64,000 nucleotides of DNA from Streptacidiphilus jeojiense (GTDB lineage: Bacteria; Actinomycetota; Actinomycetes; Streptomycetales; Streptomycetaceae): assembly GCF_000719095.1 (NCBI RefSeq), contig NZ_JOEH01000003.1, positions 246,537-310,536 on the forward strand, given 5' to 3'. The position numbers and the translations under genes are program-made. The notes below the pieces were generated by a model, which was not told where the DNA came from, searched no databases, and saw only the letters and a list, made by a program, of their open reading frames with translations. Numbering within the stretch: the stretch's first letter is position 1; every line of letters starts with the position of its first letter. Positions 13,345 through 56,700 of the stretch are shown here, one piece after another.

Positions 13345-13356
13345 GCCTGCGCAGTC

Positions 13357-15857: not shown

Positions 15858-16970
15858 GTGGCTGGTACAGATGTGCGCGCTGGAACGCTGGCGCGGATCC
15901 GCGGATCGCTGACCCCGCGGGAGTGGGCCCGGATGGGCGGGATGGCCGCCTTCGTCGTCGGCCTGCACGTCATCGGCTGGTTCACGCTGCTGGCGGTCGT
16001 GGCGCCGGCCCACTACACCGTCGGCACCCAGCTCTTCGGCGCCGGGATGGGCGTCACCGCCTACACCCTGGGCATGCGGCACGCCTTCGACGCGGACCAC
16101 ATCGCCGCGATCGACAACACCACCCGCAAGCTGATGGCCGACGGGCAGCGGCCGCTCTCGGTCGGGTTCTGGTTCTCGCTGGGCCACTCGTCGGTGGTCT
16201 TCGGACTGTGCGCGCTGCTGTCGCTGGGGGTCAGGGCGCTGGCCGGCCAGGTGGAGAACAGCTCCAGCGGGCTGCAGCACTGGACCAGCCTGATCGGGAC
16301 CACCGTCTCCGGCACCTTCCTGATGATCATCGCGGTGCTGAACGCGGTGGTGCTGTGGGGGATCGTCAAGGTCTTCCGGCAGATGCGCACCGGCGCCTAC
16401 AGCGAGGTCGAGCTGGAGGAGCACCTGGCCAAGCGCGGCCTGATGAACCGCATCCTGGCCCCGATCATGCGGACCGTCACCAAGCCCTGGCAGATGTACC
16501 TGGTCGGGCTGCTGTTCGGGCTCGGCTTCGACACCGCGACCGAGGTCTCACTGCTGGTGCTGGCCGGCGGCGCGTCGGCGTTCGCACTGCCCTGGTACGC
16601 GATCCTGGTGCTGCCGGTCCTCTTCGCCGCAGGGATGTCGCTGCTGGACACCATCGACGGCTCGTTCATGAACTTCGCCTACGACTGGGCCTTCTCCAAG
16701 CCGGTCCGCAAGGTCTACTACAACATCACCATCACCGGCCTGAGCGTGGTGGTGGCCGTGATCATCGGCGGTATCGAGATCACCTCGCTGGTCGCCGAGG
16801 AACTGGATGTCAGCGGGGGGCCGATCGGGTGGGTGGCCGGGTTGGACCTGAACAACGTGGGGTTCGTCATCGTGGGTCTGTTCGTGGCCACGTGGGTCGC
16901 TGCGCTGTTGATCTGGCGGTACGGGCGGGTCGAGGAGAAGTGGTCCGAAGGGTTGCGCGACGCGGCGTAG
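15858..16970 (+). CDS. NiCoT-family nickel/cobalt permease, Nur-type control
   Basis: A 370-residue high-affinity nickel/cobalt uptake permease of the HoxN/NixA family with about eight membrane helices. The diagnostic helix II motif is HAFDADHIAAID, followed by GFWFSLGHSSVV and LGFDTATEV. GTG 15858 is preceded by CAGGAGGGG. A Nur-like box upstream suggests nickel as the regulating ion. A second NiCoT gene at 30179 lies behind a cobalamin riboswitch, so the two probably split nickel and cobalt duties. A nested hairpin follows the stop. Confidence 0.93.
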   Translation: MAGTDVRAGTLARIRGSLTPREWARMGGMAAFVVGLHVIGWFTLLAVVAPAHYTVGTQLFGAGMGVTAYTLGMRHAFDADHIAAIDNTTRKLMADGQRPLSVGFWFSLGHSSVVFGLCALLSLGVRALAGQVENSSSGLQHWTSLIGTTVSGTFLMIIAVLNAVVLWGIVKVFRQMRTGAYSEVELEEHLAKRGLMNRILAPIMRTVTKPWQMYLVGLLFGLGFDTATEVSLLVLAGGASAFALPWYAILVLPVLFAAGMSLLDTIDGSFMNFAYDWAFSKPVRKVYYNITITGLSVVVAVIIGGIEITSLVAEELDVSGGPIGWVAGLDLNNVGFVIVGLFVATWVAALLIWRYGRVEEKWSEGLRDAA

Positions 16971-41121: not shown

Positions 41122-42390
41122 ATGTTGCGCACCACCACGTCACGCCGTCTCACAATTGCCACCGCGATCACGGTCGCGGCCGGCTTCGCGCTGGCCCCGG
41201 GCGCACACGCCAGCGATGCACTGCCCGCGCCGAGCGTCAGTTCCAGCTACTTCCCCAGCGTCGGATCGGGCGGCACCGCCCCGCTCATGCGCACCCCGGG
41301 AACGGTGACGTTCACCGTGGGCGCGGGCACTACCGGGGATCCCGTCCGCTTCCAGTACGACCTCAACAGCGAACTGTCCACCGTCGACGGATCCACCCCC
41401 TCGCCGACCATGGCGGGCTCCGGATCCGGGTGGGTTCCGATCGCCGCGGACGGCACCGCGACCGTCACCTTGGACCCCACCAAGTGGAACAACTGGATCG
41501 ACGTGCGCACCGAGAACGCGGACGGCCAGACGTCCCAGTCCACCCGCTACACGTTCTTCACGACGTCGAACGGACCCGACGCCCGCAGCGACCTCAACGG
41601 TGACCAACTCCCCGACCTGGTCGCCACCGGCAAGGACGGCAACCTCTACATCCTGTACGGCAGCGGCGGCGGGGCCCTGCAAGCAGCCACCAGCTACGCC
41701 GACTCCGGAACCGACTGGGCCTCCACCCTGATCGCCCAGAACGGTGACCTGGCAGCCGGCGACGGCTTCCAGGACATCCTGCGCATCAACGCCGCAGGAT
41801 CTGCCGGCACCGAGGTCAACAACGGCCTCGGCGACTTCAACCGCAGCTCCACGGGCTGGTACCGAAGCGACGGCAACACCTGGGCGGGTGCCACCCAGAT
41901 CGCGCTCCTGGGCCCGGACACCGTCAGCGCCGGATCCGGCGGCGGAACCCTGCTCAGCGTGGAGAACGGGCAACTGCTCGACTGGCCGGGCACTCGCTTC
42001 GGCATCCAGGGCACGTCCACCGTCATCGACGCAGGCTTCGGCACCGACGCCACCCTGGTCGCCCCCGGCGACATGAACGGCGATGGCCACGGCGACTTCC
42101 TGGTGCGCCAGGCCAACAACGGCAAGCTGTTCCTGGCGCCCAGCAACGCGGACGGCAGCTTCGGCGGCCCCAGCACCTGGAAGGAGATCGGCAAGCACTT
42201 CAAGGCCTCCGACTACCCGCTGCTGACCTCGCTCGGAGACGTCAACGGCGACGGACTGCCCGACCTGTACGCCGTCACCTGCGCCGGCACCCTCGTACTG
42301 TTCCCGGGCACCGCGACCGGCGGCTTCGGTCCCGCACAGCCCATCGCCACCTCGGGCATCGACTGGAGCCAGATCACCGCGATTGCCTGA
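41122..42390 (+). CDS. Secreted FG-GAP/VCBS-repeat protein
   Basis: A 422-residue secreted protein. ATG 41122 follows CAGGGGGG and begins a signal peptide ending near GAHA-S (residue 31). An Ig-like segment (about 40-150) comes first. It is followed by FG-GAP/VCBS-type beta-propeller blades with calcium-loop motifs DLNGDQLPDLVATG, DMNGDGHGDFLVRQ and DVNGDGLPDLYAV. Such repeats form integrin-like propellers that bind sugars or proteins outside the cell, and streptomycetes often attach them to enzymes. No catalytic domain is present here. A perfect 12-bp hairpin follows the stop. Confidence 0.88.
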   Translation: MLRTTTSRRLTIATAITVAAGFALAPGAHASDALPAPSVSSSYFPSVGSGGTAPLMRTPGTVTFTVGAGTTGDPVRFQYDLNSELSTVDGSTPSPTMAGSGSGWVPIAADGTATVTLDPTKWNNWIDVRTENADGQTSQSTRYTFFTTSNGPDARSDLNGDQLPDLVATGKDGNLYILYGSGGGALQAATSYADSGTDWASTLIAQNGDLAAGDGFQDILRINAAGSAGTEVNNGLGDFNRSSTGWYRSDGNTWAGATQIALLGPDTVSAGSGGGTLLSVENGQLLDWPGTRFGIQGTSTVIDAGFGTDATLVAPGDMNGDGHGDFLVRQANNGKLFLAPSNADGSFGGPSTWKEIGKHFKASDYPLLTSLGDVNGDGLPDLYAVTCAGTLVLFPGTATGGFGPAQPIATSGIDWSQITAIA

Positions 42391-42406
42391 CCACCTGCCC
42401 GACAGG

Positions 42407-42433
42407 GGGCCGCGCTCCGTGGGAGCGCGGCCC
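42407..42433 (+). terminator. 12-bp hairpin after the FG-GAP gene
   Basis: GGGCCGCGCTCC (42407-42418) pairs perfectly with GGAGCGCGGCCC (42422-42433) around the loop GTG, starting 16 bases after the stop. Confidence 0.85.
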
Positions 42434-42506
42434 ACCGCGCAGCCCCGCCACTCCGCGGCCTCGGTCCCAGCGGGCCGTTGGAGGACGGCGTGAGAAGCTT
42501 GGCCGT

Positions 42507-42665
42507 ATGAACCGGTTGGCTGGTGCGACCTAGCCTTATCTGCTTCAGCATGCCGAGAATCCGGTCGACTGGTGGCCTTGGACGCCGGAGGCTTTCGAGG
42601 AGGCGCGGCGGCGCGATGTGCCGGTGCTGCTGTCCGTCGGGTATGCGGCTGCCACTGGTGCCAGT
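42507..42665 (+). pseudogene. Truncated DUF255 (thioredoxin-domain) gene, copy 1
   Basis: The 5' end of a DUF255/YyaL-type gene: MNRLAGAT, then an in-frame TAG where copy 2 has TCG, then [20 protein letters not shown] and [13 protein letters not shown] missing base follows, just before the CHWC-coding part. Homology stops at CACTGGTGCCAGTG, the same point as in copy 2 (44883), so both share one junction. The full gene would encode about 670 residues. Nothing of the remainder is in the window. Confidence 0.82.
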
Positions 42666-42773
42666 GAACTCGTCAACCGAGTAGTGGGTTCGGCGGGACG
42701 TTGCTGGCATCACCTGGCTGGGACCGAAGGACCCATGGCAAGCCATCCGCCCGGCAAGCAGCAGACGGGTGCA

Positions 42774-44714
42774 TCAGAGTTTCTGCACGCCGAGATCGGC
42801 GAAGAGCTTCCTGGCGGCGGGGTCGACAGAGTAGAGCGCCAGGCAGCGGATGGAACGGGTCATCAGCACGCCGTAGGCATTGCGCAACGCCCGGATGAGT
42901 TCGGTGTCGTCCTTGATCTGTGAGGCCTTGCTCCTCACGTGCTCGCGGTGGGCGACCCAGGCGCTGTCCTCCCACGTGAGATCGGGGCCCATGATCACGC
43001 CGCCCCACTCGTACTCGAGCCCTTGGGCCGTGTGCACGCACCCGATCTGCCCGAAGCCTCCGGGGTCGGTCGCCCAGAACTTCCTCTTGGGTATTCCCTG
43101 GGTGCTGTGGTTGTCGCCGGCGTTCCAGGGGCGTGCCCAGTCGGGATCGGGGCTGACGTCGGGGAAGGTGCCGGTGTCGTCGGTCCAGCCCCAGCACATT
43201 CCGGCGGTCATCCGGGCGCTCACGCCCGTCGGGTCCTTGCTCTGGAGGAAGGACTCCATCTCGGCAGCACTGTCAGCGTAGTAGAGCTCGAAAGGCTCAG
43301 GGTCGGTGGCGCCGTCCGGACGCCACGCGATGGGGTTCCCGGTCATGAGCCGGCTGACCCAGGTGTCGTATGTCGAGCTGCCGACGGTTCGGAGTACCCG
43401 GTCCAGGTTGATCGGCACGATCTCTACGCCGAGGTGCTGCAGCTCGCTCTTGAGTCTCTCAGGGGACCAGACCTCTTCCGCGAAGAGGCGTTGATCCCCG
43501 TCGATGAAGAAGACCGGCACACGAGCGTGGGTGACGACTTCCTCCACCGAGGTCGGCCCTGTCTGCCGCATCCCGAAGGAACCGGTCTTCGGTCGCAGGC
43601 TGAGGCGGTGGGCTTCGTCACAGACGAGCAGGTCCAGCTCGTCGGGACCGAACTTGTCGGCAATCTGCACCAGCGGCCTGAAGACCTTCTGGTGCCCCTT
43701 GGCAGCCCGCTTGAAGGTGTCGCGAGAGGCGACGCCTCCGGAAACGAAGGCAGCAGAGTGTCCAGCTTGCAGCGCTTCTCCCAGCGCGGTGAGCGCAACG
43801 AGTGATTTGCCGCTGCCCGCACGTCCCTCGATGACGAATACCCTTTTCATCCCCTGCGACCCGACGGCTGCCGTGGCATCGGCGATCGCCCGGACCGCCC
43901 GCAGTTGGTGTTCGACGAGACTGAACCGGGTGTGGCCGTCGACGATCGCCGCGGTCTCGTCGGTCAGAAGGTTGGTCGAGCGTCGACGTCCGAGCAACTC
44001 CTGTGCGGCCTCCGCGCCGGAGTCGGAGCTGAAGTTCGCGGTCAGGAATTTCTCCAGGTCCCCCGGTTGCCGTGCAGTGAACGTGGGGATCCCTGGGCGA
44101 GGGGACACCTGGCTTATCCACTGGTGCTCCGGATCCATCAGGTTGTGCAGGTAGGCCGCGCCTACGAGATTGACGTAGCGGTCGTCGAACATGCTGTGGT
44201 GCCTGCGCAGGTCGTCCATGTTGTTGCCGACCTGGACCGAAGGATGCTTGAGGTGCCTCTCGTACTCAGGGAACGGCGCGTAGACCAGATCCCTGGCGCA
44301 GCGCTGGCAGAGCGTGGTGTTACCCACCGCCCTGCACGAGGCGCAGAGCCCGGCTGTCTTCGACACGGTCGGACGCTCGATGCTGCCCCACTGCTTGAGC
44401 TCGATGACCGCGTAGCTGAGCCGTCCCGATGGATGTTGTCCTGCGAGGACGACGTCGATGTGGTTCATCTGGCCGTCGGCGAGGTACTCGATGAACATCC
44501 GCACCTGGCCGAGCCCGAGATTGTCCAGCGTGGTCGCCAGCTCGTAGACGCTCTCACGCCAGGACCTGACATCCGAGGGGCTCGGTTTCTTGTCCTTCGG
44601 GTGCGCGGCGGTGTAGCACTCACTGATCTTCCGGACCAACTGATGGCGGTCCCGTACCAGACGCTGTACGGACCAGAACGCCTCCAGCGGCTTCCAGCCG
44701 CTTCCAACCGCCAT
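42774..44714 (-). CDS. Putative PD-(D/E)xK nuclease fused to a DUF2075/Schlafen-type helicase
   Basis: A 646-residue protein. ATG 44714 has GGAGGT seven bases upstream; in-frame ATGs at 44771/44774 lack an SD. The N-terminal part has D87 (HIDVVL) and E105-x-K107 (YAVIELKQW), spaced as in PD-(D/E)xK nucleases. A zinc ribbon follows (CASC 124-127, CQRC 136-139). The helicase has Walker [10 protein letters not shown] (296-304), Walker [10 protein letters not shown] (363-370) and the late motif [14 protein letters not shown], matching DUF2075. The base composition is visibly less GC-rich than that of the neighbours. It stands alone between two truncated DUF255 copies. This suggests acquired DNA, possibly an antiviral nuclease-helicase. 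Confidence 0.8.
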
Positions 44715-44882
44715 CCCGTTTACCTCCAGTGAATGGAAGCTCTCCAGAGCCGATTCACTGGAACTTAGCATCATCGTATTGTCATTCAATCTGGATTTCC
44801 CTGGTCGGCTGCGGAAGGCGGACCACGGCGGAGCCGACCTGGGTGAGCACTTAGGGCTGAGCCGCGTGAGACGCTGGTTCGC

Positions 44883-45062
44883 ATGAACCGTCTTGCCGAC
44901 GCGACCTCGCCTTATCTGCTTCAGCACGCGGACAACCCGGTCGACTGGTGGCCCTGGTCGGCCGAGGCGATGGCCGAGGCTGCGCGGCGCGATGTGCCGG
45001 TGCTGCTGTCCGTCGGGTATGCGGCGTGCCACTGGTGCCAGTGCATTTGTAAAGGCTGGTAG
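44883..45062 (+). pseudogene. Truncated DUF255 (thioredoxin-domain) gene, copy 2
   Basis: ATG 44883 begins [19 protein letters not shown], continues VDWWPW and then [15 protein letters not shown], an intact DUF255 N-terminus through the CxxC. It then leaves the family at CAGTG and stops after 59 residues (TAG 45060-45062). About 160 bases are highly similar to copy 1, and about 20 bases upstream (GCGTGAGACGCTGG) are also shared, so the copied unit includes the promoter region. Confidence 0.82.
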
Positions 45063-45095
45063 TCCTGAACTGGACCTATGCCAAGAGGTGACAGC

Positions 45096-45230
45096 ATGAG
45101 TACCGAACGTGATGAACTCGACGCGGAGATCGAAGCCTGGGTGGCGGCGCAGGTCGCCGAGTCGCCTTCATGGACTCCCGAGAAGTGGGAGAGCATCCTC
45201 GCCGGCTTGAGGCCGAGCAAGTCGGAGTAG
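45096..45230 (+). CDS. 44-residue hypothetical protein
   Basis: ATG 45096 is preceded by AAGAGGTGACAGC. The 44 residues are acidic and helical, starting MSTERDELDAEIEAWVAAQV and ending with a WTPEKWESI segment and LRPSKSE. Small proteins with a similar WxAxxVAxxPxxTPE layout often lie beside integrases or other mobile genes in streptomycetes. Its last 15 bases recur exactly at 53448-53462 in the remnant zone. The function is unknown. It may be an accessory gene of the inserted DNA. Confidence 0.55.
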   Translation: MSTERDELDAEIEAWVAAQVAESPSWTPEKWESILAGLRPSKSE

Positions 45231-45434
45231 TGTCAGGCGATCCGGTGGCCTGGTCGAGGTCGCGCCCTCGCCTTGCGCTGCAGGGCCGCTTGGCTGCCCC
45301 GGCGGCTGGGTGCGTTGGGCCGCTTCCAGGCGGGCGGGTGCCCGGGTGCGCTGGGTGATCAGCGGTTCCAGTGGTTAAGGTCGGCGGGTGACTGCCGACT
45401 TTGACTTCACCCCTGCTGCTGCGGGGGAGGCGCG

Positions 45435-46412
45435 ATGACTTCGGGCCTGCAGCAGGCGCTCGACGCGCTGGACCGGCGGATCGTCGCCGCCCTGCAGATC
45501 GACGGGCGGGCTTCCTGGCGGCGGATCGCCGCCGCTCTGGACGAGCCCGAGCGGAAGATTGCGCGGCGCGGGAACCGGCTCCTGGAGAGCGGGGACGTCG
45601 AGGTGCGCGGGTTGGCGACGCGCGGTGAGACGGTCATCCTGCGGATGAACTGCCGGCCGGGGTCGGTGCGGGACATCGCCGTCGCCACCGGGCTGCGCGA
45701 GGACGCGATCTTCTCCTACGTCCTGGCCGGCGTGACCGACTGCGTCGCGGAACTGCAGTGCGCGCCCGGGCAGCTGGGGCGGCTGGTGCTGGACGAGGTT
45801 CCCGCGTTGCCCGGGCTGGTGCAGCAGCAGGTCTCGCCGGTGCTGCGGTACTTCCGCACGGTCCACGAGTGGTCGCCGGGGATCCTGCGCCCCGAGGAGG
45901 TCGAGGCGCTCGACAGCGGGGGCGTGCCGGCCGACGGGGTGGGCCTGCCCGAGCAGGAGTTGGCGCCTGACGAGCGCGCGGTGCTGGCAGCCCTGGTCGA
46001 GGACGGCCGGCGTACCAACGACGAACTCGCCGCCCTGGCAGGGGTGTCGGTGGCCACGGCGCGGCGCCGGGTGGAGTCGCTGACGCGCGACGGGCTGGTC
46101 AGCATCCGGGCCGTGGTGGAGCCCGCGCTGCTCGGCCTGCCGGTCGAGGCGCTGCTGTGGATCAGGACCAGGCCGGATGAGGTGGAGGAGGTCGGCCGAC
46201 TGCTGGTCGCCTCGCCGCTGGTGCGGTATGCGGCGGTGGTCATGGGGGAGTACCAGCTGCTGGTGCACGTGACCCAGCCCTCGAAGGAGGAGCTGCACCG
46301 GTTCCTGACCGAGCCCGCGTGGGTGCGGCGGGCGGAGGCCGTGCAGTCGCATCTGGTGGTCGAGGCGTGGAAGCGGAGCGGCGTGGTGGGCCGGGGGGGT
46401 CCGCTGCACTGA
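45435..46412 (+). CDS. Two-unit AsnC/Lrp-family regulator
   Basis: A 325-residue protein built of two AsnC/Lrp halves. The first helix-turn-helix is LDRRIVAALQIDGRASWRRI (about 11-30) with a sensor half after it, and the second is PDERAVLAALVEDGRRTNDE to VATARRRVESL (about 177-215) with a ligand-binding RAM-like half. ATG 45435 follows GGGGGAGG. It precedes the amidase and malonate genes on the same strand and is the obvious candidate regulator for them, sensing a small acid or amino acid. Repeats in the 134-bp gap downstream look like its operator. Confidence 0.88.
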   Translation: MTSGLQQALDALDRRIVAALQIDGRASWRRIAAALDEPERKIARRGNRLLESGDVEVRGLATRGETVILRMNCRPGSVRDIAVATGLREDAIFSYVLAGVTDCVAELQCAPGQLGRLVLDEVPALPGLVQQQVSPVLRYFRTVHEWSPGILRPEEVEALDSGGVPADGVGLPEQELAPDERAVLAALVEDGRRTNDELAALAGVSVATARRRVESLTRDGLVSIRAVVEPALLGLPVEALLWIRTRPDEVEEVGRLLVASPLVRYAAVVMGEYQLLVHVTQPSKEELHRFLTEPAWVRRAEAVQSHLVVEAWKRSGVVGRGGPLH

Positions 46413-46432
46413 CTACCCCGCTCGTGCGTCTG

Positions 46433-46483
46433 AAAAGTTCATGCAAGTGGCTGACATGTCTTAAAAGTTCATATCGATTGAAC
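46433..46483. promoter_or_regulatory. Direct and inverted repeats before the amidase gene
   Basis: AAAAGTTCAT occurs twice, 30 bp apart (46433-46442 and 46463-46472), about three helical turns. The second copy runs into the inverted repeat GTTCA-N7-TGAAC (46467-46483). The AT-rich setting between the AsnC regulator and the amidase fits an operator/promoter for the cassette. Confidence 0.6.
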
Positions 46484-46546
46484 CATTGACGAAAAAAGTC
46501 ACATCGGCCAATGTGGTGGCACACGCCCTGCTGCCCGAGGAACGCC

Positions 46547-47980
46547 ATGCATGTGAGCCCCACCGAAGCCGACGCGCTGTGTGCGCGCGACGCCGTCGAA
46601 ATCGCGGACCTGGTCCGTCGGCGGGAGCTCTCCGCGCGGGAGGTCGTCGCCGCCCACCTGGACCGGATCGGGCGGGTGAACGCGACCGTCAACGCAATCG
46701 TCACGCTGGACCCCGAGGGCGCGCTGGCGGCAGCCGGCCGGGCCGATGAACTGGCCGCCTCGGGAGCCGAACTGGGCCCGCTGCACGGTCTGCCCATCGC
46801 CTTCAAGGACACCCACGAAACCCGTGGCATGCGCACCACGCACGGTTCGCCGATCTTCGCCGAGCACGTGCCGGAGCAGGACGACATCCTGGTCCAGCGC
46901 ATCGAGGCGGCCGGCGCCATTCGCCTGGGCAAGACCAACGTCCCGGAGTTCGCCGCAGGGTCGCACACCTTCAACCGGGTCTTCGGGGCCACCCGCAACC
47001 CCTACGATCCGACCCGCTCGGCCGGAGGCAGCAGCGGCGGCGCCGCCGCTGCGCTCGCCGCTCGGCTGCAGCCGATCGCGGACGGCAGCGACATGGGCGG
47101 CTCGCTGCGCAACCCGGCCTCGTTCTGCAACGTGGTCGGACTGCGGCCGACCCCCGGCCGGGTCCCGGTGCTCGCCGCCGACGACCTGTGGGAGACGCTC
47201 GCGGTCGCGGGCCCCATGGGGCGCACCGTCGCCGACACCGCGCTACTGCTGTCGGTAATGGCTGGCCCTGACGCCCGCAGCCCGATCTCGCTGGAGACCC
47301 CCGGAGCGGTCTTCCGGGAGCCGCTCGCACCCGACCTCACCGGCCTCCGCGTCGCCTACGCGCCTGACCTCGGCGGGCGCGTCCCGGTCGACGCCGAGGT
47401 GCGGGCCGTGGTCGCCCGGCAGGTCGCGGTGCTGGAGGAGCTGGGCTGCCGCGTCACCGAGGACTGCCCCGACCTGGACGGTGCCGAGGACGTCTTCCGC
47501 ACCCTGCGGGCGCACTCCTTCCGGACCGGCTTCGGAGCCCTGAACGACGGGTCCCCCGACCGGTTCAAGCCCAGCCTGCTGTGGAACATCGAGGAGGGCC
47601 TGAAGCTCACCGCGGGCGACCTGGCCCGAGTGCAGGCCGAGCACGGCCGGATCCACCTCGCCGCCGCCGACTTCTTCAGCCGCTACGACGTGCTGATCGC
47701 CCCGGTAAGCCAGGTCGCGCCGTTCGACGTGGAGATCGAGTACCCGACCGTCGTCGACGGCCGGCCGCAGCACACCTATCTCGACTGGATGCGATCCGCC
47801 TACCTGCTGACCGTGCTCGGCGCGCCCGCACTGTCGGTACCGGCCGGCTTCACGCCCGCCGGCCTGCCGGTGGGGCTGCAGATCGTGGCCGCGCCGCGCG
47901 CCGAGCGCACCGTGCTGCGGGTCGGCGCGGCGTACGAGGCGGCCACCCGCCACGGCCGGACCGCGCCCCTCCTCCCGTAG
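46547..47980 (+). CDS. Amidase-signature enzyme of the malonate cassette
   Basis: A 477-residue amidase-signature (AS) hydrolase using the Ser-cis-Ser-Lys triad. The Lys lies in LPIAFKDTHE, the cis-Ser in AGGSSGG and the nucleophile Ser in GSDMGGSLRNPASF. ATG 46547 follows GAGGAA. It leads a run of genes for malonate uptake and use, so malonamate or a substituted malonamide is a reasonable substrate (compare malonamidase E2), but indole-acetamide or other amides fit the family equally well. The DUF3311 gene follows after 92 bases. Confidence 0.87.
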   Translation: MHVSPTEADALCARDAVEIADLVRRRELSAREVVAAHLDRIGRVNATVNAIVTLDPEGALAAAGRADELAASGAELGPLHGLPIAFKDTHETRGMRTTHGSPIFAEHVPEQDDILVQRIEAAGAIRLGKTNVPEFAAGSHTFNRVFGATRNPYDPTRSAGGSSGGAAAALAARLQPIADGSDMGGSLRNPASFCNVVGLRPTPGRVPVLAADDLWETLAVAGPMGRTVADTALLLSVMAGPDARSPISLETPGAVFREPLAPDLTGLRVAYAPDLGGRVPVDAEVRAVVARQVAVLEELGCRVTEDCPDLDGAEDVFRTLRAHSFRTGFGALNDGSPDRFKPSLLWNIEEGLKLTAGDLARVQAEHGRIHLAAADFFSRYDVLIAPVSQVAPFDVEIEYPTVVDGRPQHTYLDWMRSAYLLTVLGAPALSVPAGFTPAGLPVGLQIVAAPRAERTVLRVGAAYEAATRHGRTAPLLP

Positions 47981-48072
47981 GTCTCCCGCCCGACCCCGTG
48001 GGCGTCGCTCTCGCCGACGCTCGCCGTGACGCCCTTCCGTCCCCCGTCCTGACTCCCTCTGCTGGAGCAACC

Positions 48073-48309
48073 ATGATGCGAACTCCGCATGCGCTCTGGG
48101 CCGCCGTGCCCGTGCTGGCCCTCCTCGGCACGCCGTTCCTGCCCTTCGTCAACGGCCCCCACCTGTGGCTGGGCATTCCGTCCGTCATGTTCTGGTGCCT
48201 GCTGTGGACGGCCGGCACCACCGTGAGCCTGCTCCTGGTGGACCGCCGGTTCCGCGGCGGGGACGACGAGTCCGACGAGTACGACGACACCCAGGAGGCA
48301 GCAGCATGA
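48073..48309 (+). CDS. DUF3311 small membrane subunit
   Basis: A 78-residue protein with two membrane helices (about 8-28 and 32-55), a PxFxNGPHLWLGIPSVMFW segment typical of DUF3311 and an acidic C-terminal tail (GDDESDEYDDTQE). Its TGA overlaps the ATG of the symporter gene (ATGA), so the two are translationally coupled. DUF3311 proteins accompany sodium/solute symporters for small carboxylates, perhaps as an accessory subunit. Confidence 0.86.
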   Translation: MMRTPHALWAAVPVLALLGTPFLPFVNGPHLWLGIPSVMFWCLLWTAGTTVSLLLVDRRFRGGDDESDEYDDTQEAAA

Positions 48310-49760
48310 GCACCACCATGGTCATCACGACCGCCGGCATCGTCCTCGTCGCGCTGGTGGGACTGAGCGGACGCCGCCCGCCCAGCCGTGAACTGGGGGA
48401 GTGGACCGTCGGCAACCGCCGGTTCTCCACCGCGACCACCTGGTTCCTCCAGGCCGGCGAGTCCTTCACCACCTTCAGCTTCCTCGGCCTCGCAGGCATG
48501 GCCTTCAGCGCCGGCGTCGCCGCCTGCTTCGCCCTGTGCTACCTCGCCATCAACCTGGTCCTGCAGTACTTCACCGCCCCCCGCATGCGCCAACTCGGCC
48601 TTCGCGGCGGGTACGTGACCCAGGCGGACTTCTTCGTCGACCGGTACCGCAGCCCGCTGCTGGGACGGGTCGTCGCGGTGGTGGGCGCAGTGTTCCTGCT
48701 GCCCTACCTGCAACTGCAGATCACCGGCCTGGGCCTGATCGTCCAGCTGGCCACCGGCAGCAGCGCGGGCGGCCGCCTCAGCATGGTCCTGGCGACCGTG
48801 CTGACCGTCGGATTCGTGCTGTGGTCGGGCATCCGCGGCATCGCCAGGGTCGCCTACCTCAAGGACGCTCTGATGATCTTCGGGCTGGTCGCGCTGCTCA
48901 TCGGCGTCGCGGTGACCGTCCACGGCGGCATCGGCGGACTGTTCGCGACCGTCCGCGACACCCACCCGCAGCTGCTCACGCTGAACCAGGAGGGATACGA
49001 CGCGACCTTCTTCTTCACCGCGGTCCTCATCTCCGGCATCGGCGGCGGGCTGGGCACCATGGCCCACCTGTGGCCGCCGGTCCTGGCCGCACGCAGCGGG
49101 CGCGCCCTGCGCTCCAACGCCATCTGGCTGCCGCTGTACCAGATCGCCCTCGGCATACCGGTGATCATCGGATTCGCCGGAGTGCTGCTGGTGCGCAAGG
49201 GCACCGCGCCCAACGGCGTCGCCCTCACCCTGGCCGGACAGACCCTGCCGGGTTGGCTCGTCGGCGTCATCGCCGTCGCCGCAGCGTCGGCGGCGATGGT
49301 GCCCTCGGCGGCCATCCTGGTCGGCATCTCCAGCATGCTCTCCCGCAACCTGGTCGCCATCCGCTCCCCCCGCACCCAGCTGCGGGTCAACCACCTCTGC
49401 GTGGTCGTCGCCGCCGGACTGGCGCTGGCCCTCGGACTGGCCCGCCCCGGACTGCTGTCCAACCTACTGCTGCTCACCTACGGCGGCCTGACGCAGCTCG
49501 CCCCGGCGATCGCCATGGGCCTGGCCCGTACGGTCCGGCTGCACGCGGCAGCCGCCCTCGCCGGCATCCTGGCCGGGGTGGCCGTGCTGGTCTGGCTGAC
49601 CTTCGGCGGAGTGGACGTCGGTACCGTGGACACCGGCCTGATCGCCCTGGTCGTCAACATCGCCGTCACCACGGTGGCGGAGATCGCGGTCCGGCTCCGC
49701 CGTCCGGCCGCGACCCCCGTCGCACCAGCGCCCAGCACGCCGGCCCCCGTGTCGTCCTGA
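48306..49760 (+). CDS. Sodium:solute symporter (SSS), likely malonate carrier
   Basis: A 484-residue transporter with about 12-13 membrane helices. ATG 48306 overlaps the DUF3311 stop; longer frames read through that gene. SSS features include RELGEWTVGNRRFSTATTWF near the N-terminus, FLGLAGMAFSAGVAACFAL, DALMIFGLVALLIG and AAASAAMVPSAAILVGISSM, where small residues form the sodium site. Lying between an amidase and malonyl-CoA decarboxylase/synthetase genes, it most likely imports malonate or a related acid with sodium. Confidence 0.9.
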   Translation: MSTTMVITTAGIVLVALVGLSGRRPPSRELGEWTVGNRRFSTATTWFLQAGESFTTFSFLGLAGMAFSAGVAACFALCYLAINLVLQYFTAPRMRQLGLRGGYVTQADFFVDRYRSPLLGRVVAVVGAVFLLPYLQLQITGLGLIVQLATGSSAGGRLSMVLATVLTVGFVLWSGIRGIARVAYLKDALMIFGLVALLIGVAVTVHGGIGGLFATVRDTHPQLLTLNQEGYDATFFFTAVLISGIGGGLGTMAHLWPPVLAARSGRALRSNAIWLPLYQIALGIPVIIGFAGVLLVRKGTAPNGVALTLAGQTLPGWLVGVIAVAAASAAMVPSAAILVGISSMLSRNLVAIRSPRTQLRVNHLCVVVAAGLALALGLARPGLLSNLLLLTYGGLTQLAPAIAMGLARTVRLHAAAALAGILAGVAVLVWLTFGGVDVGTVDTGLIALVVNIAVTTVAEIAVRLRRPAATPVAPAPSTPAPVSS

Positions 49761-49785
49761 TCCACACACCGAGTCGGGAGTTCCG

Positions 49786-51105
49786 ATGAACGCACGCGAT
49801 GAGCAGCAGCGGGACCGCACGGAGGGGACGCCGACCCTCTCCCCGCTGCACCAGCTGCTCACCGACTGCGCCTCGCTGATGGGCGACGGCGGCGAGGCCT
49901 CCGTGCGCGCCGTGGCCACCCGGGCGCTCGCCCACTACGGGGAACTCGACGACGACGCCAAGCGGGAGTTCTTCGCCCACATCACCCGGGCGTACGACGC
50001 CGACGCCGACCGGGTGCGCGCGAGCTACCGGCAGTGGGAGGCCGCGAGGGCGGCAGGGGGGCAGGGCACCGAGGAGCTGACCGGGCTCTTCGACGCGGTC
50101 GAGCCCGCCCGCCAGCAGCTGCTGCGCCGCATGAACCACGCCCCCGAGGCCACCCCGGCCCTGGTGGACATGCGCGCCGACCTGCTCCGGCTGCTGCCCG
50201 ACCACCCGGAACTGCGCCCCCTCGACCACGACTTCCGCCACCTGCTCACCTCGTGGTTCAACCGCGGCTTCCTGCGGATGGCGGAAGTCACCGCCGACGC
50301 CCCGGCCGAGCTGCGCGCGCACCTGCTGCGCGGCGAGCGGGTCCACCCCATGGCCGGCGCCGACGAACTGCGCCGGCGGCTGGACCCCGCCGACCGACGC
50401 ATCTACGCCTTCTTCCACCCCTCCACCGGGAACATCCCGCTGGTCTTCGTGGAGGTCGCCCTGGTGCGCGGACTGCCCACCGAGATCACCCCGCTGCTCG
50501 CGCTCGGCCCCGCGATTCCCCCGGGCACGGCCGACACCGTCGCGCTGTACTCCATCAACAACACCCTCGACGGGCTGTCCGGGGTGTCCTTCGGTAGCTT
50601 CCTGATCAAACAGGTCATCGAGCAGGTGGGCGAGCAGCTCCCGCAGCTGACGCTGTTCGCCACACTCTCGCCGATTCCGGGCTTCCGCAGCTGGCTGGCG
50701 GAGCAGTCCGGGCAGGACGGCGAACTGCGGCGCCTTGTAGCGGACATGGATGCTTCCAGCGACCCGTCGATGCTCGGGCCAGCCGGGACCGCCCGGCTGC
50801 GCTCCCGGCTGCTGCCGGTCCTGGCCCGGTACATCGCGGTCGAGCGCCGCGCGGACGGGCGCCCGCTCGACCCGGTGGCCCGCTTCCACCTGGGCAACGG
50901 CGCCGCCGCCTGGCAGCTCGACTGGCCGGCCGACCCCTCCCCCCAGGCCTGGGACCAGTCCTACGGCGCGATGGTCAACTACCGCTACGAGCCGGCCGAA
51001 CTGGAGCGCCGGCACGAGGACTTCGTCCGCCGAGGCGTGGTGGCTGTCGACGGCCCCATGCGCGCCCTGCACGCCCCGGGGCCACCCCCGGACCGCCGCA
51101 CCTGA
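49786..51105 (+). CDS. matA: Malonyl-CoA decarboxylase
   Basis: Converts malonyl-CoA to acetyl-CoA and CO2. The 439 residues form an N-terminal helical oligomerisation part and a C-terminal GNAT-fold catalytic domain. Family signatures are HMTSWF-like HLLTSWFNRGFLRM, RRIYAFFHPSTGNIPLVFVE, YSINNTLDGLSGVSFGSFLI and FATLSPIPGFRSWL. The catalytic His/Ser candidates lie in FFHPSTG and SPIPGF. With MatB next to it, the pair makes acetyl-CoA from free malonate. It begins 25 bases after the symporter stop, which supports one operon. Confidence 0.93.
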   Translation: MNARDEQQRDRTEGTPTLSPLHQLLTDCASLMGDGGEASVRAVATRALAHYGELDDDAKREFFAHITRAYDADADRVRASYRQWEAARAAGGQGTEELTGLFDAVEPARQQLLRRMNHAPEATPALVDMRADLLRLLPDHPELRPLDHDFRHLLTSWFNRGFLRMAEVTADAPAELRAHLLRGERVHPMAGADELRRRLDPADRRIYAFFHPSTGNIPLVFVEVALVRGLPTEITPLLALGPAIPPGTADTVALYSINNTLDGLSGVSFGSFLIKQVIEQVGEQLPQLTLFATLSPIPGFRSWLAEQSGQDGELRRLVADMDASSDPSMLGPAGTARLRSRLLPVLARYIAVERRADGRPLDPVARFHLGNGAAAWQLDWPADPSPQAWDQSYGAMVNYRYEPAELERRHEDFVRRGVVAVDGPMRALHAPGPPPDRRT

Positions 51106-51179
51106 GCCGCGACCGCAGCAACGACATGTCTACGTCCCCGCCCTGGAAGCGGACGGCGATCACGAGAACGGAATTTCCG

Positions 51180-52751
51180 ATGGTCTCCTTCACCCCCGTC
51201 CACCGCTCCTTCGAGGAACAGGTGCGGCTGCGCGCCGACCGGACGCTCTTCGAACTACCGGACGGCCACGGGGTCACTTGGCGGCAGACCGACCTGGCCG
51301 CCGGGCGGATCGCCGCCCGACTGCTGGCCGACGGAGTCCGGCCCGGTGACCGGGTCGCCGCGCAGGTGGAGAAGTCCCCCGAGGCCATCGCCCTCTACCT
51401 GGCCACCCTGCGCATCGGCGGCGTCTTCCTGCCCCTCAACACCGCCTACACCGGCGCGGAGGTCGACTACTTCATCGGCGACGCCCGGCCCCGCGTGTTC
51501 GTCTGCGCCCCCGAGCGTCGCGAGCAGCACGCCCACCGGGCCGGCGATGGCATGCTCGTGGAGACGCTCGGCACCACGGGGGACGGCACCCTCCTGGACG
51601 GTGGTCCCGGACCGGACGGCCCCGGAGCCGACGACCGGGCGGGGCGCTCCTTCGAAGCCCGCGCCGAGGACCCCGCGGCGATCCTCTACACCTCCGGGAC
51701 CACCGGGCGCTCCAAGGGTGCGGTTCTCTCGCACGGCAACCTGGCCTCGAACTGCGCAGCCCTGGTGGAGGCCTGGCAGTTCACCGAGGTGGACCGGCTG
51801 ATCCACGCGCTGCCGATCTTCCATGTGCACGGCCTGTTCGTCGCCGTGAACATGGCGCTGACCACCGGCGCCACCCTGCTCTACCTCCCGAGATTCGACG
51901 CCGGGCAGATCGTGGGGCTGCTGCCGCGGGCGACGGTGTTGATGGGCGTACCGACCTTCTACACCCGGCTGCTGGACGAGGACCGGCTCACCCCTGCCGC
52001 CTGCGCCTCCATGCGGCTGTTCGTCTCCGGCTCGGCACCCCTCCTCGCGAGCGACCACCGGGCCTTCGAGGCCCGCACCGGCCACGCCATCGTGGAGCGC
52101 TACGGCATGACCGAGACCGGGATGAACACCAGCAACCCATACGCGGACGGCCCGCGCCGGCCCGGCACGGTCGGCAGGCCGCTGGCAGGCGTCTCGGTCC
52201 GGGTGGTGGAACCGGAGAGCGGCCGGGAGCTGCCCGCCGGCGAGGTGGGCGGGATCGAGGTGCGCGGACCCAACGTCTTCGCCGGCTACTGGGAGCTCCC
52301 CGAGAAGACGGCCGCCGAGTTCCGCGCGGACGGCTACTTCAAGACCGGTGACCTGGGCCGCTTCGACGCGGACGGCTACCTCCACATCGTGGGCAGGGAC
52401 AAGGACCTGGTCATCTCCGGGGGGTTCAACATCTATCCCAAGGAGATCGAGGAACTGCTCGACGCCCACCCCGCCGTGGCCGAGTCCGCCGTCATCGGCG
52501 TCCCGCACCCGGACTTCGGGGAGACCGTCGTCGCGGTGGTCGTCGCCGCACCGGGCCAGGAGCCCCGGGAAAAGGAACTCCTGGCCTCCGTGGCGGAGCA
52601 CCTCGCCCGCTTCAAGCACCCCAGGGCTGTCCACGTGGTCGACGCTCTGCCACGCAACATCATGGGCAAGGTGCAGAAGGCCGAGCTCCGCCGCCACTAC
52701 GCGGACCTGTTCACCGGCCCCGACCCCCGGGCCGGCCGGGCGCCCCGCTAA
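51180..52751 (+). CDS. matB: Malonyl-CoA synthetase (acyl-CoA ligase)
   Basis: An ATP-dependent ligase making malonyl-CoA from malonate and CoA. ATG 51180 (or GTG 51183) gives 523 residues, close to known MatB proteins. The P-loop is YTSGTTGRSKGA, with LPIFHVHGLFVA, YGMTETGMNTSNPYADGPRR and the late motifs FKTGDLGRFDADGY and RNIMGKVQKAELR with the catalytic Lys. The RYGMTETxM and pocket Arg segment (PRRPGTVG) resembles malonate-specific enzymes. A second, diverged copy of its last 38 codons lies at 53559-53678. It is the last gene of the cassette. Confidence 0.9.
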   Translation: MVSFTPVHRSFEEQVRLRADRTLFELPDGHGVTWRQTDLAAGRIAARLLADGVRPGDRVAAQVEKSPEAIALYLATLRIGGVFLPLNTAYTGAEVDYFIGDARPRVFVCAPERREQHAHRAGDGMLVETLGTTGDGTLLDGGPGPDGPGADDRAGRSFEARAEDPAAILYTSGTTGRSKGAVLSHGNLASNCAALVEAWQFTEVDRLIHALPIFHVHGLFVAVNMALTTGATLLYLPRFDAGQIVGLLPRATVLMGVPTFYTRLLDEDRLTPAACASMRLFVSGSAPLLASDHRAFEARTGHAIVERYGMTETGMNTSNPYADGPRRPGTVGRPLAGVSVRVVEPESGRELPAGEVGGIEVRGPNVFAGYWELPEKTAAEFRADGYFKTGDLGRFDADGYLHIVGRDKDLVISGGFNIYPKEIEELLDAHPAVAESAVIGVPHPDFGETVVAVVVAAPGQEPREKELLASVAEHLARFKHPRAVHVVDALPRNIMGKVQKAELRRHYADLFTGPDPRAGRAPR

Positions 52752-52978
52752 CGGCCTAGGACTGCTCCCCGGATCGGGCGGATGGGGGCACACCTGGCGC
52801 TTGAGGCTGTGACGGGCGGCCAGGGCGGCCTTCCAGACCTTGCGCGCCAGCTCTCCGGCAACCTCGTCCGAGGCGACCAGGTGATGGCGCCTGTCTCCCT
52901 GAGTGCGCAGGCCCGACGCGCCGAGCGGGCGTCCAGGTGTGCACCCTACGGCCGAGGGCGTGTGCAACGCTGGTGCGT

Positions 52979-53032
52979 ATGAACCGACTTGCTGGTCTGA
53001 CCTCGCCGTACCTGCTTCAGCACGTCGAGTAA
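52979..53032 (+). pseudogene. Truncated DUF255 gene, copy 3
   Basis: ATG 52979 reads [17 protein letters not shown] and stops. It matches the first 16 residues of copies 1 and 2 and shares upstream bases (GCGTGTGCAACGCTGG). Its homology ends earlier than theirs, at GTCGAGTAA, which is the start of the 30-bp repeat. Confidence 0.78.
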
Positions 53033-53052
53033 CGCCAGGGGCTTTGAGCGTC
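53024..53052. repeat. Imperfect 29/30-bp direct repeat, left copy
   Basis: The 29 bases here begin GTCGAGTAACGCCAGGGG and end GCTTTGAGCGTC. The 30-bp counterpart at 53453-53482 begins GTCGGAGTAGCGCCAACG and ends GCTTTGAGAGTC. The second copy begins inside the recurring AGCAAGTCGGAGTAG sequence that also ends the 44-residue gene at 45230. Confidence 0.65.
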
Positions 53053-53558
53053 TGGTCGGGGCAGCTTCGGCATACTTGATCAGGCGGGCCACCAGTGCCT
53101 GTTCAGAAGCACTGGTCCGGCTCGTTGGCGTCTACGCAAGTCAGTGTTGCCACTGTCCGATTCACGACGACCAGACGGTGGCAGGTGGCGGCCCGCCTCC
53201 CCACGGCATGAGCCAGGCAGAGACGGTTACGGGCCAGGGCCGGCTACTACGAACGCTTTTGGCGAGCGAGGAAGCCGTCAACGAATCGTTCGACCTAGTG
53301 TAGTTGAGTGGAGTCGTCCACGTTCAGCCGGTCGAAGGGCTTCACTCCTGCGTTCAACAGCAGACGGCTTCGGCTGTGATCGTAGCCCGCATGCTCCCGG
53401 TGCTGTGGTCCGTCGATCTCGATGACACCCGCCTACCCGCATGCCCTAGCAAGTCGGAGTAGCGCCAACGGCTTTGAGAGTCGGTCGGATCAGATCGGAT
53501 GATCTCTCGAAGGTCTCGTTCTGCGAGTACACGACGGTCTCGACCAGGGTCTCGTGGC

Positions 53559-53678
53559 CGTGTGGTCGACGCGCTGTCCCGCAACGTCATGGGCAAGGTG
53601 CAGATGGCCGAGCTTCGTCGCCGCTGTGCGGACCTGTTCGCCGGCTCCGCTGCCGGAGCGGGGCAACCGGTCCGCTGA
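53559..53678 (+). pseudogene. Detached 3' end of a matB-like gene
   Basis: The frame reads VVDALSRNVMGKVQMAELRR and CADLFAG and ends TGA 53676-53678. It parallels the last 38 codons of matB (VVDALPRNIMGKVQKAELRR) with many synonymous and some amino-acid differences; the catalytic Lys context is kept. It has no start and no upstream homology. It is therefore the remnant of a second, related ligase gene rather than part of the intact one. Confidence 0.85.
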
Positions 53679-53697
53679 CGGAACCGGGAGCAGCCGG

Positions 53698-53736
53698 GCC
53701 CGGTGCGACCGTTCACGGGGGACGGTCGCACCGGGC
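53698..53736. terminator. 15-bp hairpin between remnant zone and protease
   Basis: GCCCGGTGCGACCGT (53698-53712) and its exact reverse complement (53722-53736) flank a 9-base loop. It lies 20 bases after the matB-like remnant stop and 27 bases past the stop of the minus-strand protease, so it is probably bidirectional. Confidence 0.85.
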
Positions 53737-53762
53737 CTCGGGGCTGGCGGGATGTCACCAGG

Positions 53763-56700
53763 TCACTGCCGTAGCAGGGTCCAGTCCTGGGTGGTGGTCA
53801 CCCCCTTGGCGACCTTGACGGAGACTGTGTCGGGTTGGTAGCCGTCCTTGGCGGCGAGGACGGTGACCTTGTCGCTGGGCAGCCAGTACCCGTACTGGCC
53901 GTTCCTGTCGCTGTGGACGGTGTACGAGGCGGTTCTGGAGATGATCCGGATGGTCGCACCCGGCAGCGGGTGCAGCGCACCGGCGGCGTCCCGGTACTGG
54001 ACGGTGCCGGCCAGCTTGCCCCACGTGTTGGGCGGTTTGACGGTCATCGTCACGCCGACCGCAGGGACGCGGTACGGGGTGTCCGTGGTCGCCAGCATTC
54101 GCCCGGTGTAGTTGCCCGGTTGGGCCACGGAGGCGTCCGCGGCATCGAAGGTGACGGTCACCTTGGTGCTGGCGCCTGCCGCGAGGGTGAGCGTGGGGGT
54201 GTTGAGCGAGAGCCACGGCGCCGGGCCGTCCGAGGGCTGGTCCCAGCCCGCGAGCACCTGAGCGGTCGGCTGCGCGTCCCCGACGCCGATGCTGCCGCCG
54301 ATGGCGTAGAAGCCCTGGCTGCCGCCGAAGCGGTACGAGGCGACCGGGGTGTTCGGCAGCTCGGTCCAGCTGTCAGTGGCCGGGTCGTAGGCCCAGCCCT
54401 GGTTGGACAGAGCGGTGTCGACGACACCGTCCTGGAGCAGCAGCTGCCCGTTCGCACTGGTGTAGGCGGTGCCCCAGTCGGTCTTCGGGAGCGAGGCGAT
54501 CGGGCTCCAGGCGTCGGTGGCCGGGTCGTAGACGTAGGCATGGGCGCTGTCGGCGTTCGCCGCCGAGTACCCGCCGGCGCAGTAGAGCTTGCCGGCGATG
54601 CCGCCGCAGGCCTCCCAGGCGGTGGGCTCGGGGTAGTCGGCGATCTTCGTCCAGGTGTTCTGCGACGGGTCGTAGGCGAGGGCGTCGGTGCTGCCGCAGC
54701 CGGTGTTCGTGCAGCCGCCGACGACGTACATCTTGCCGCCCGCCGCGGCGCTGGCGGCCCCCGCGTGTCCGGACGGGATGGTGGCTCCGGTGCTCCAGCT
54801 GTCGGTGGCCGGGTCGTAGATCTCCATCGAGGAGTCGACGGTGGACTGCGGGGTCCATCCGCCGACGACGTAGATCCTGCCGTCGATGGCGGCGTGGGCG
54901 GGTGCGTCCCGCTTGTCGTGGGCGCTCGCCTTCTGCGTCCAGGACCCGGTGGCGGGGTCGTAGGCGTAGAGGGTGTTCACTTCGCCCACGTCGTTGCCGG
55001 CGAACCCGAGGCCGGAGTAGACGACACCGCCGACGGTCTCGACGACGTTGTCGGTGCTCGCGGCGGGGACGTCCGCAATGGGCTGCCAGCCCTCCGAATC
55101 GGCGGGTCCGACGGCGTTCTGAGCCGCTGTCAGAGCGGTGGCGGCCGCCTTCCTCTCGGCGGGGGTCGCGTTCGCCGCGGCGAGGGCCGCGGGTCCCGCG
55201 GAGAACGGGCCGGCAATGCGCCGGGTCGGGACGTTCCCGGTGGCGCCGACGGACGCTGCCGTGTAGCCGGAGGACTCGGCCGAGAGCGTGACCGTTGCGG
55301 GCGCGGTTCCGGTGTTGCGGACGGTGAGCGTGGTCTTCGCCGTGCCGCCCATCTTGGCAGTGGCGGACAGCGAGGTGGAGGAGAGCTCGACGCGGCCGGC
55401 CTTCATGGCGAAGTCGGCCTCGGTGACCGTGCTCTGGACGATGGCCACAGTCGAGGCGGCGGAGGCGTAGTGCGCCAGCGCGGCATCGACGGTGTGGCTG
55501 CTGACGCCCGGCACGAAGGCCCAGTAGAAGGCACCGCCGAGGGCGGTGTCGTCAACGACCGTGGACGTGGCGGAGACGGTGCTGTCGGCGGCATCGGTGA
55601 CGGCCACGCCTGCCAGCGCGGCACCGGTGTTGGCGTCGGTCACCTTGCCGACGAGCAGGCCGCCCTGCTGGGGGTCGCAGGTGGCGCCGCCCAGCTGGAC
55701 GTTGTCCACCTCCCAGTAGCCGCCGGTGGTGGCGCTGTAGGCGAAACGGATCTGCACCTGGGACTGCCCGGCAGCCTGCGGCAGCGGGACCGAGACGACA
55801 GTCCGGATCGAGGTGGCGGAGGGGGAGTTCCAGACGGTGGTCCAGGTGGCGCCGCCGTCGGTGCTGAGCTGGACGGCACCTGCGGTGTCGGTGCCCTTGG
55901 CGTAGCCGTCCCCGAAGGAGAGGACCGGAGGGTCGTCCGCGGTGAAGGTGGACAGGTCGGTTGCCGGGCTGGTCAGCGTGGTGTTACGGATGTTGTCCTG
56001 GTACGCGTCGGCGTCGACGATCGCGAAGTTGCCGTCACCGGTGGTCAGGTTGGAGTGCCCCAGCGGGTTGGTGAAGACCCAGCCGGCCTTGGTCCCGGCC
56101 GCGCTGGCGACGCTCCAGCCGTCCGGGACGGCCTTGTCGTCGAAGCTCTGGAAGAGTCCGTGGTGGTTGAGCTGGTACCCCGCCGCCGTGCACGCGGCGG
56201 TGTCGATCGGCAGTTGGACGTCGTCGGTCAGCGAGGACGTGCCTGCGCTGATCGTGCTGGTGGTGGACTGGTAGCCCCGGTAGTAGGGGGTGAAGTCCAA
56301 GGTGTAGTCGGCGTTGACGGGAACGTAGACCGTGTAGGCGCCGGTCTTCGGATCGGTGTGGACCGGGCCGCCGGTGGCGCCTTCGACGCTGATCGAGGCG
56401 TAGAGCGGCCAGCCCTGCCCGGAGCCGTCCTTGACGGTGCCGGACACCTTGACCCGGGCCACCTCGGCGAGCGCGAGGTTCTCGGTCACCACACCGCCGT
56501 CGGTGACGGTGACGCCCACCGCCTTCCCGGTCGCGAAGCCGTAGGCCCCCGCGGTGACGTCGTAGGTGCCGGGGGAGAGGTAGAGGTCGTAGCTGCCGTC
56601 GGCGGCTGTGGTCACCGAGCGGCCGCCGGCCGAGACGACGGCGTCGGCTACCGGATCGCCGGTCGTTGCGTCCGTGATCGTGCCCTTGACCTGGCCGTGT

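Follow-up and report, generated by a model that had tools for sequence, protein, structure and literature searches.

Why does a single nuclease-helicase gene of Streptacidiphilus jeojiense lie between two truncated copies of the start of a different gene, the one encoding the DUF255 protein? The stretch in which it does so, referred to here as the window, covers 64,000 nucleotides of contig NZ_JOEH01000003.1 (assembly GCF_000719095.1, positions 246,537 to 310,536 of the forward strand). DUF255 (PF03190), a YyaL-like thioredoxin-fold protein, is present as a full-length version elsewhere in this genome, and the two pieces, beginning at 42507 and 44883 of the window, match its N terminus. They look like scars of mobile DNA that inserted repeatedly at one exact point of DUF255, a common gene of actinobacteria, bringing a new gene start each time and in many cases anti-phage or toxin-antitoxin type genes as well; very probably, the best explanation of the whole is that the DUF255 start is an insertion point for integrative elements which replace the 5' end of the gene and stack. 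Genomes, contigs of this genome and individual loci are cited below by G, C and L numbers, the window lying on C3, and features are on the forward strand unless stated otherwise.

The arrangement reported in the initial annotation, a nuclease-helicase gene between two truncated DUF255 starts with a common junction, was confirmed by the repeat, by a search for the junction core and by the PF09848 match described below. An ungapped direct repeat of 162 nt with 83% identity links 42488-42649 with 44864-45025, and both copies reach CACTGGTGCCAGTG, a putative recombination core which at its first site (42653-42666) comprises the C-H-W-C codons of DUF255 and the first bases of the element's left end, and which recurs at 45030-45043. 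These are its only two sites in the 9.16-Mb genome, a count that is not unusual in itself, since the pattern read backwards also has two matches; what is unusual is the placement, with the two sites 2.4 kb apart and each at a DUF255 end. For CACTGGTGCCA, the 11-nt core of this sequence, the chance expectation is 0.04 per window and two were observed. Copy 1 (42488-42652) contains the promoter side and the first ~48 codons of DUF255 and is a pseudogene, with a TAG at codon 9 and one base lost near its end. Copy 2 (44883-45062) is an open frame of 59 codons, an orphaned start preceded by its own promoter side (44715-44882). The two copies agree at 85.1% of positions in their first ~153 nt but at only 52.5% in the 168 nt upstream; they are therefore starts from distinct lineages that have separate upstream DNA. 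Copy 1 is best read as the right end of an older element, or as an older gene start, that was cut by insertion of the helicase unit; its start, 'ATGAACCGGTTGGCTGG', and the stretch upstream resemble right ends in G228, G046 and G017. A third remnant in the window (copy 3, 52979-53029, the first 51 bp only) and the one complete DUF255 gene of this genome, on C16, had both been missed in the initial annotation; the remaining pieces lie on C51 and C62.

The meaning of copy 2 becomes clear from G028, a genome of another genus, in which window positions 42678-45043 align at 93.0% over 2,369 bp. There the unit has the same promoter side and the same DUF255 start, which reads on in frame to give a complete DUF255 gene of 674 codons. 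The 168 nt upstream of copy 2 are 87.0% identical to the corresponding DNA of G028 and 51.5% identical to that of the organism's own C16 gene, and the start itself (153 nt) is 84.3% identical to the former and 76.3% to the latter. The in-frame joint and the shared promoter side indicate that copy 2 is the helicase unit's own right end, a replacement DUF255 start, and it is best read as having been cut in the window by a later element and as still serving the DUF255 gene in G028. The helicase gene of G028 is without a truncated fragment because its unit ends in the DUF255 start itself; the left end of the unit is broken by what appears, by eye, to be a fragment of an IS5-type transposase. The proposal that the gene arrived as a module, with the DUF255 pieces as a footprint of the process, thus finds support in this second genome.

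Layouts of this kind are met in several families of actinobacteria. DUF255 is present in all 14 genomes of the genus, with extra or split pieces in G011, G001, G013 and S. jeojiense itself. An orphan start, a 4.6-kb unit and a complete DUF255 gene follow one another in G011, G228 has the same layout with a 5.9-kb unit, and G046 has three DUF255 starts. Scanning GTDB with a Nocardioides relative gave 52 loci, picked by patterns that include one favouring CHWCQ junctions; arrays were found in Dactylosporangium, Catenulispora, Asanoa, Peterkaempfera, Flexivirga, Kitasatospora, Streptomyces and Nocardioides. Among 96 loci, a non-random set largely chosen for matches to DUF255 or to the partner open reading frame (ORF) described below, 20 have at least two DUF255 pieces, on one strand in all 20 cases, and a truncated piece lies upstream of the DUF255 body in 14 of the 14 multi-piece loci that have a body. 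The figure is 10 of 10 after dropping two second fetches of one contig (L087/L056, L129/L081) and three short "scar" splits (L195, L198 and L201, each a single start parted from its body by a short insertion). Of 394 genomes of the class, sampled without regard to arrays, 305 have DUF255, and 14 of these 305 have at least two matches at E ≤ 1e-8.

The point of departure from DUF255 is also recurrent. A protein search for short homologs, which favours short proteins since its query ends at the junction and only 0.55-1.75 times its length was admitted, found 1287; among the 120 listed, 37 continue as DUF255 and 83 do not. These 83 leave DUF255 at CHWC or the next residue in 59 cases (one of them, P0110, two residues earlier), one residue further on in 21 and two further on in three, so that 82 of the 83 depart between CHWC and two residues after the following H/Q. 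The sequences after the core fall into families, and left-end DNA is common to different bacterial families: the left end (P' arm) of the helicase unit, CCAGTGAACTCGTCAACCGAGTAGTGG... (42661-42710), is homologous to the left end in Asanoa siamensis, a species from a different actinobacterial family (local score 24, against at most 18 in 1000 shuffles). An element end that appears to supply both a new upstream side and an in-frame DUF255 5' end is found in G028, G011, G228 and the Nocardioides islands.

Those islands, in N. jensenii and N. nematodiphilus, span 20.2 and 28.3 kb from orphan start to complete DUF255 gene, on one strand, and each has a tyrosine recombinase of 468-478 residues within 0.2 kb of the complete DUF255 start. 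The two recombinases are 73% identical to each other; they match PF00589 at E ~1e-4, below the Pfam cut-off, and contain an NLRHH...Y motif that is presumably catalytic. Tandem TTTGTATC / TTCGTATC repeats stand at both ends of the islands: GAGTTTGTATC twice and TTCGTATC twice, on the right upstream of the DUF255 start and on the left 117-120 nt past CACTGGTG, the placement expected of arm sites. A separate search for this recombinase family at E ≤ 1e-20 found it in two of the 394 class genomes, in each case at a DUF255 start, and both genomes are among the 14 of 305 with at least two DUF255 matches (P = 0.002 by draw). The N. gansuensis array contains a truncated relative, and in G415 and G384, as in the islands, a recombinase is present at one end. 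A second group of candidate movers is the serine recombinases: in Actinomadura terrae one is found 0.11 kb from DUF255, in G029 the orphan start is preceded by a decayed one, and three of the 18 class genomes (of 394) with relatives at E ≤ 1e-40 have them beside a DUF255 start. At L153 (G067) and L154 (G138), in two genomes of the family, a serine recombinase lies 0.16-0.25 kb upstream of an intact DUF255 gene, and the ~39 kb fetched in each case contain no orphan start.

Other kinds of mobile DNA fared less well. A phage origin was dropped, as comparison of the mini-DUF255 with phages gave one unannotated 4.5-kb record and with viral contigs no confirmed match, and the tyrosine recombinase has no relative in phage records or viral contigs. 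An IS110 transposase adjoins the DUF255 remnant on a Nocardia plasmid, but the junction there lies elsewhere (after CHVMV), and this idea too was rejected; that remnant is one of three examined among 12 plasmid records with a match, the other two being complete DUF255 genes.

The process suggested by these comparisons can be put as follows. Elements would recombine at CACTGG-TG-CCA, inside the codons of the C-x-W-C-H motif of DUF255, each carrying its own promoter and the first ~50 DUF255 codons between its right arm and the core. Insertion would cut off the old start, leaving a 53-60-codon orphan upstream, and would supply a new start in frame. As the replacement start is joined in frame, the DUF255 gene would be kept, and as the joint rebuilds the same site, later elements could insert again, so that units would stack on one strand with the latest arrival next to the gene body. 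For the window this would make copy 1 the older start, cut when the helicase unit (42661 to ~45037) arrived, and copy 2 the start brought by that unit, cut in its turn on arrival of the next element, whose left end runs from 45038 on. Units without a recombinase would be moved by a tyrosine or serine recombinase acting in trans. The order of events and the exact crossover point are what we infer here; the layout, the in-frame joint of G028, the recurrence and the recombinases at the site in relatives are there to be seen in the genomes. A bolder extension, which we put forward tentatively as a possibility rather than as our expectation, is that the DUF255 start acts as a travelling recombination site in an integron-like depot of defence genes in Actinobacteria, with recombinase-free cassettes stacked and shuffled in trans by serine or tyrosine recombinases and the host gene rebuilt each time.

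Several observations weigh against insertion of this kind. Apart from the truncated one of N. gansuensis, neither the helicase unit nor any other small unit with ORFs listed contains a recognised recombinase gene; in S. jeojiense itself the tyrosine family is not represented at E ≤ 1e-20, and the single serine member (C47) has no DUF255 next to it within the 12 kb fetched. Fifteen of the 18 serine-recombinase loci are not at DUF255, and DUF255 runs off the contig end in both of the class genomes found with the tyrosine recombinase, so that their extra matches may partly be assembly effects. Whether most relatives have the helicase gene in the same conserved position without DUF255 fragments, which the initial annotation had named as telling against its own reading, received a mixed answer: the G028 gene has no truncated fragment and stands at a DUF255 start, and G113, G201 and G083 have no DUF255 piece in the 14 kb around the gene, so that in three of the five close homologs it would seem to travel in some other way as well. 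Finally, C3 ends where the window ends and no overlap joins it to C16; with the intact DUF255 gene on C16, the assignment of array and gene to the same locus comes from the flanking genes.

One rival, which we consider rather unlikely, dispenses with a site-specific enzyme for the small units: excised circles or imported DNA carrying the ~160-bp DUF255 start would recombine homologously with resident starts, so that units are stacked and lost, and the sharp junction would be inherited from ancient integrations. Such a process agrees with the lack of a recognised recombinase in the small units, with the ~160 bp of common sequence at every joint, and with G011, whose two DUF255 starts are identical for 132 nt with unrelated DNA upstream, a pattern that also fits plain homologous recombination or gene conversion and so counts against site-specific insertion. 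However, several unrelated left ends begin at the same point, which would call for several independent precise events, and recombinases are found at that same point in relatives.

A separate question is what the helicase does. Its gene (42774-44714, reverse strand; 646 residues from the ATG) encodes a Schlafen-group-3 helicase with a conserved PD-(D/E)XK motif, judging from the match to PF09848 (SLFN-g3_helicase; E 6.8e-64, 216.8 bits with a cut-off of 24, residues 290-631) and from the motif alignment. Walker A lies around G297-S304 and Walker B (CDEAH) at 365-369. The nuclease residues read in the initial annotation, D87 and E105-x-K107, have held up: D87, E105 and K107, the latter two within E105-L-K107-Q-W, are invariant in 24 of 24 aligned homologs, and the predicted N-terminal structure resembles PD-(D/E)XK nucleases with a moderate Z score, while a Foldseek search with the nuclease domain alone gave no match below 1e-3 and a sequence search of the PDB with the helicase gave none. 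A CxxC..CxxC ribbon (C124/C127/C136/C139) is an insertion in the close subfamily (5 of 5) and is absent from the two distant relatives checked. That the gene is less GC-rich than its surroundings is also correct (0.649 for the unit and 0.716 for the window). Directly upstream of the ORF is an imperfect inverted repeat, TCCAGTGAATGG...GATTCACTGGA (44726-44765), partly kept in G028 and a candidate operator or arm site.

From this make-up the protein may be supposed to cut and unwind phage nucleic acid as a single-gene defence. It is doubtful, in our estimate, that it is instead a repair or mobile-element nuclease-helicase which merely rides on the element, as might be thought from the absence of a strong PADLOC match to any named system protein (best PDC-S41, 6.7e-10 over 60 residues, and Nhi, 1.7e-8) and from the wide spread in the family of relatives of ~35% identity (88 of 297 family genomes with some match at E ≤ 1e-30). 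The combination of a nuclease with an SLFN-type helicase speaks against such a role, as does the accessory distribution of the close subfamily, which is confined to five of the 297 genomes (S. jeojiense itself; G028, 94% identity; G113, 67%; G201, 63%; G083, 60%), and genes of sister units match defence models.

The cargo of those units is varied. Both Nocardioides islands carry type I restriction-modification genes and a TrwC relaxase, together with an Orf5/HEC-06-like DUF262-type protein and PDC-S28 in N. nematodiphilus and a PifA-like protein in N. jensenii; with this gene content, including the relaxase, they look like integrative mobilizable elements. The G011 unit has ShosA/ShosT-like genes and a GmrSD_N protein, the Catenulispora unit a DUF4143 ATPase and Fic, the Dactylosporangium unit the NYN protein of HEC-09, the Kitasatospora phosalacinea unit Uma2 and the G228 unit DUF4365, and the Peterkaempfera unit has a PIN gene with a small neighbour that is antitoxin-like by eye and has no Pfam match. 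A PADLOC scan of 20 chosen proteins, the window helicase and 19 cargo proteins, gave matches of the latter to ShosA (1.8e-52), SoFic (1.1e-47), PDC-S01 (9.9e-152) and HEC-09 (4e-58); two of ten proteins had no match at 1e-3 and two of ten none at 1e-10.

Copy 2 is followed by the left end (P' arm) of the next element, a conserved stretch of ~58 nt with the imperfect palindrome CTGGTAGTCCTGAACTGG (45038-45095), and then by that element's conserved first ORF, 44 codons beginning MSTERDELDAEIEAW... (45096-45230), which had not been noticed in the initial annotation. Relatives of this partner ORF were found in 19 of the 297 family genomes at E ≤ 1e-3. A DUF255 start precedes it on C3 and C51 of S. 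jeojiense and in G011, G228, G204, G046, G148 and G029, is partial in G194 and G038, and is lacking before the other matches. The recurrence of mini-ORF and partner on C51, in G011 and in others, together with the open frame of copy 2, might suggest that the orphan starts are real small genes, each encoding a 55-60-residue protein ending in CxWCQC and made with a 44-residue partner. This is highly improbable: copy 1 has a stop and a lost base, copy 3 follows DUF255 for 17 codons only, what comes after CHWC varies from family to family, the G046 and G148 copies stop right after the core, and the same start in G028 is simply the DUF255 gene. A real two-gene family of mini-ORF and 44-codon ORF was accordingly dropped once the full gene had been found in G011, G228 and G028. 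Weakest of all, and scarcely credible, is the target duplication offered in the initial annotation, by which one insertion duplicated 160 bp of target: two direct copies do flank the helicase gene, but they are only 83-85% alike, with upstream 168-nt stretches as dissimilar as given above, and in G028 the right copy is part of the unit, promoter side included.

The partner ORF also turns up in other settings. On C23 (141363-141494, L023) an 89%-identical one is preceded only by CCACTGATGCCAGTG, with no DUF255 start; CCACGTGATGGCGCATGAG, some 200-250 nt upstream of it, looks like the beginning of the DUF255 3' part. After its 51 bp, copy 3 runs into sequence that resembles, by eye, the C23 stretch following the 44-codon ORF, which we read as an internal deletion. 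A weak partner-like ORF (6e-4) lies ~3 kb from the helicase gene in G113, and in nine of the 18 serine-recombinase loci (L140-L143, L146, L148-L150 and L152, C47 of S. jeojiense included) the 3' end of the recombinase gene has, at a distance of ~0.1-0.7 kb, a small ORF weakly similar to the partner (E 3e-4 to 0.04).

Right ends of a second type were seen at L058:13747-13902, L079:10225-10394, L081:9593-9760, L107:8004-8190, L201:10013-9843, L052:7775-7960 and C62:7404-7493. Here the DUF255 start ends in CAYTTATGCTTC or a CATTGGTAGCTTC-like sequence, and some 16-30 additional nt, which in many cases shift the frame or contain a stop, separate it from a CACTGGTG-like core; this may be another type of attP. 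A promoter and terminator scan gave no signal above chance, and an Rfam search of 41500-54000 gave no match.

In relatives within the genus the gene order is ABC transporter, greA, mca, nickel transporter, DUF255, MFS and hlyIII-like (names by eye), and in G012 DUF255 starts 7.5 kb after the nickel transporter. Window positions 12472-16970 hold the upstream part of this native order, with greA (13414-14058, reverse strand), mca (14600-15484) and the nickel transporter (15858-16970), all likewise named by eye, and C16 holds DUF255 and the downstream part. As these three genes lie upstream of DUF255 in relatives, the array appears to be on the upstream side of the native locus, and the flanking genes would place the C3 array in front of the C16 gene. 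Between copies 2 and 3 (45435-52751) lie genes for an AsnC-type regulator, an amidase, a sodium:solute symporter, malonyl-CoA decarboxylase and an AMP-binding enzyme, resembling a cluster for malonate use. This cluster was not found near DUF255 in the relatives fetched and is possibly cargo of the next element.

If the DUF255 start is indeed an insertion point, the puzzling "truncated DUF255" fragments, of which the protein search found many, are likely to be insertion signatures. Accessory defence and toxin-antitoxin genes of Actinomycetes, those as yet without a name among them, should then be traceable through DUF255 starts that break off at the CHWC codons, independently of known defence families. 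The results suggest a new attB in a widely conserved gene (with the frequency in the class given above) together with a tyrosine recombinase for it, which would be useful for integrating DNA into soil actinobacteria. They would also give a system for testing the movement of recombinase-free cassettes in trans. No description of the DUF255 start as an integration hot spot was found in the literature covered by PubMed Central (PMC), subscription journals being largely outside that coverage; DUF255 is mentioned in 11 papers there, none of which deals with integration judging by title or opening of the abstract.

Parts of this picture have parallels among known systems. With Schlafen group 3 / DUF2075 helicases that have an N-terminal nuclease the window protein shares a score above the PF09848 cut-off and conserved residues of PD-(D/E)XK type, and it differs in the ribbon inserted in its close subfamily. 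SXT is reported (Hochhut and Waldor, 1999) to supply a new prfC 5' end and promoter. The SXT/R391 elements of V. cholerae and E. coli use a tyrosine recombinase to integrate into the 5' end of prfC (PMC10866021), and to that extent they resemble the present elements in entering the 5' end of a housekeeping gene; here, however, the target is DUF255, the point is the C-x-W-C-H codons, the units stack, and most small units are without a recognised recombinase. Closer in host range are the actinomycete integrative and conjugative elements (AICEs) of Streptomyces and serine-integrase prophages with an intragenic attB, which insert site-specifically into conserved genes of the same hosts; no published DUF255 attB was found in the PMC literature, and the tyrosine recombinase, as noted, has no relative in the phage records or viral contigs. 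In integrons, small units of a few genes stack on one strand at a fixed site without a recombinase of their own. The DUF255 units are likewise small, often of toxin-antitoxin or defence type, and stacked on one strand, but unlike integron cassettes each would carry part of a host gene with its promoter, and the growing end of the array would be a housekeeping gene.

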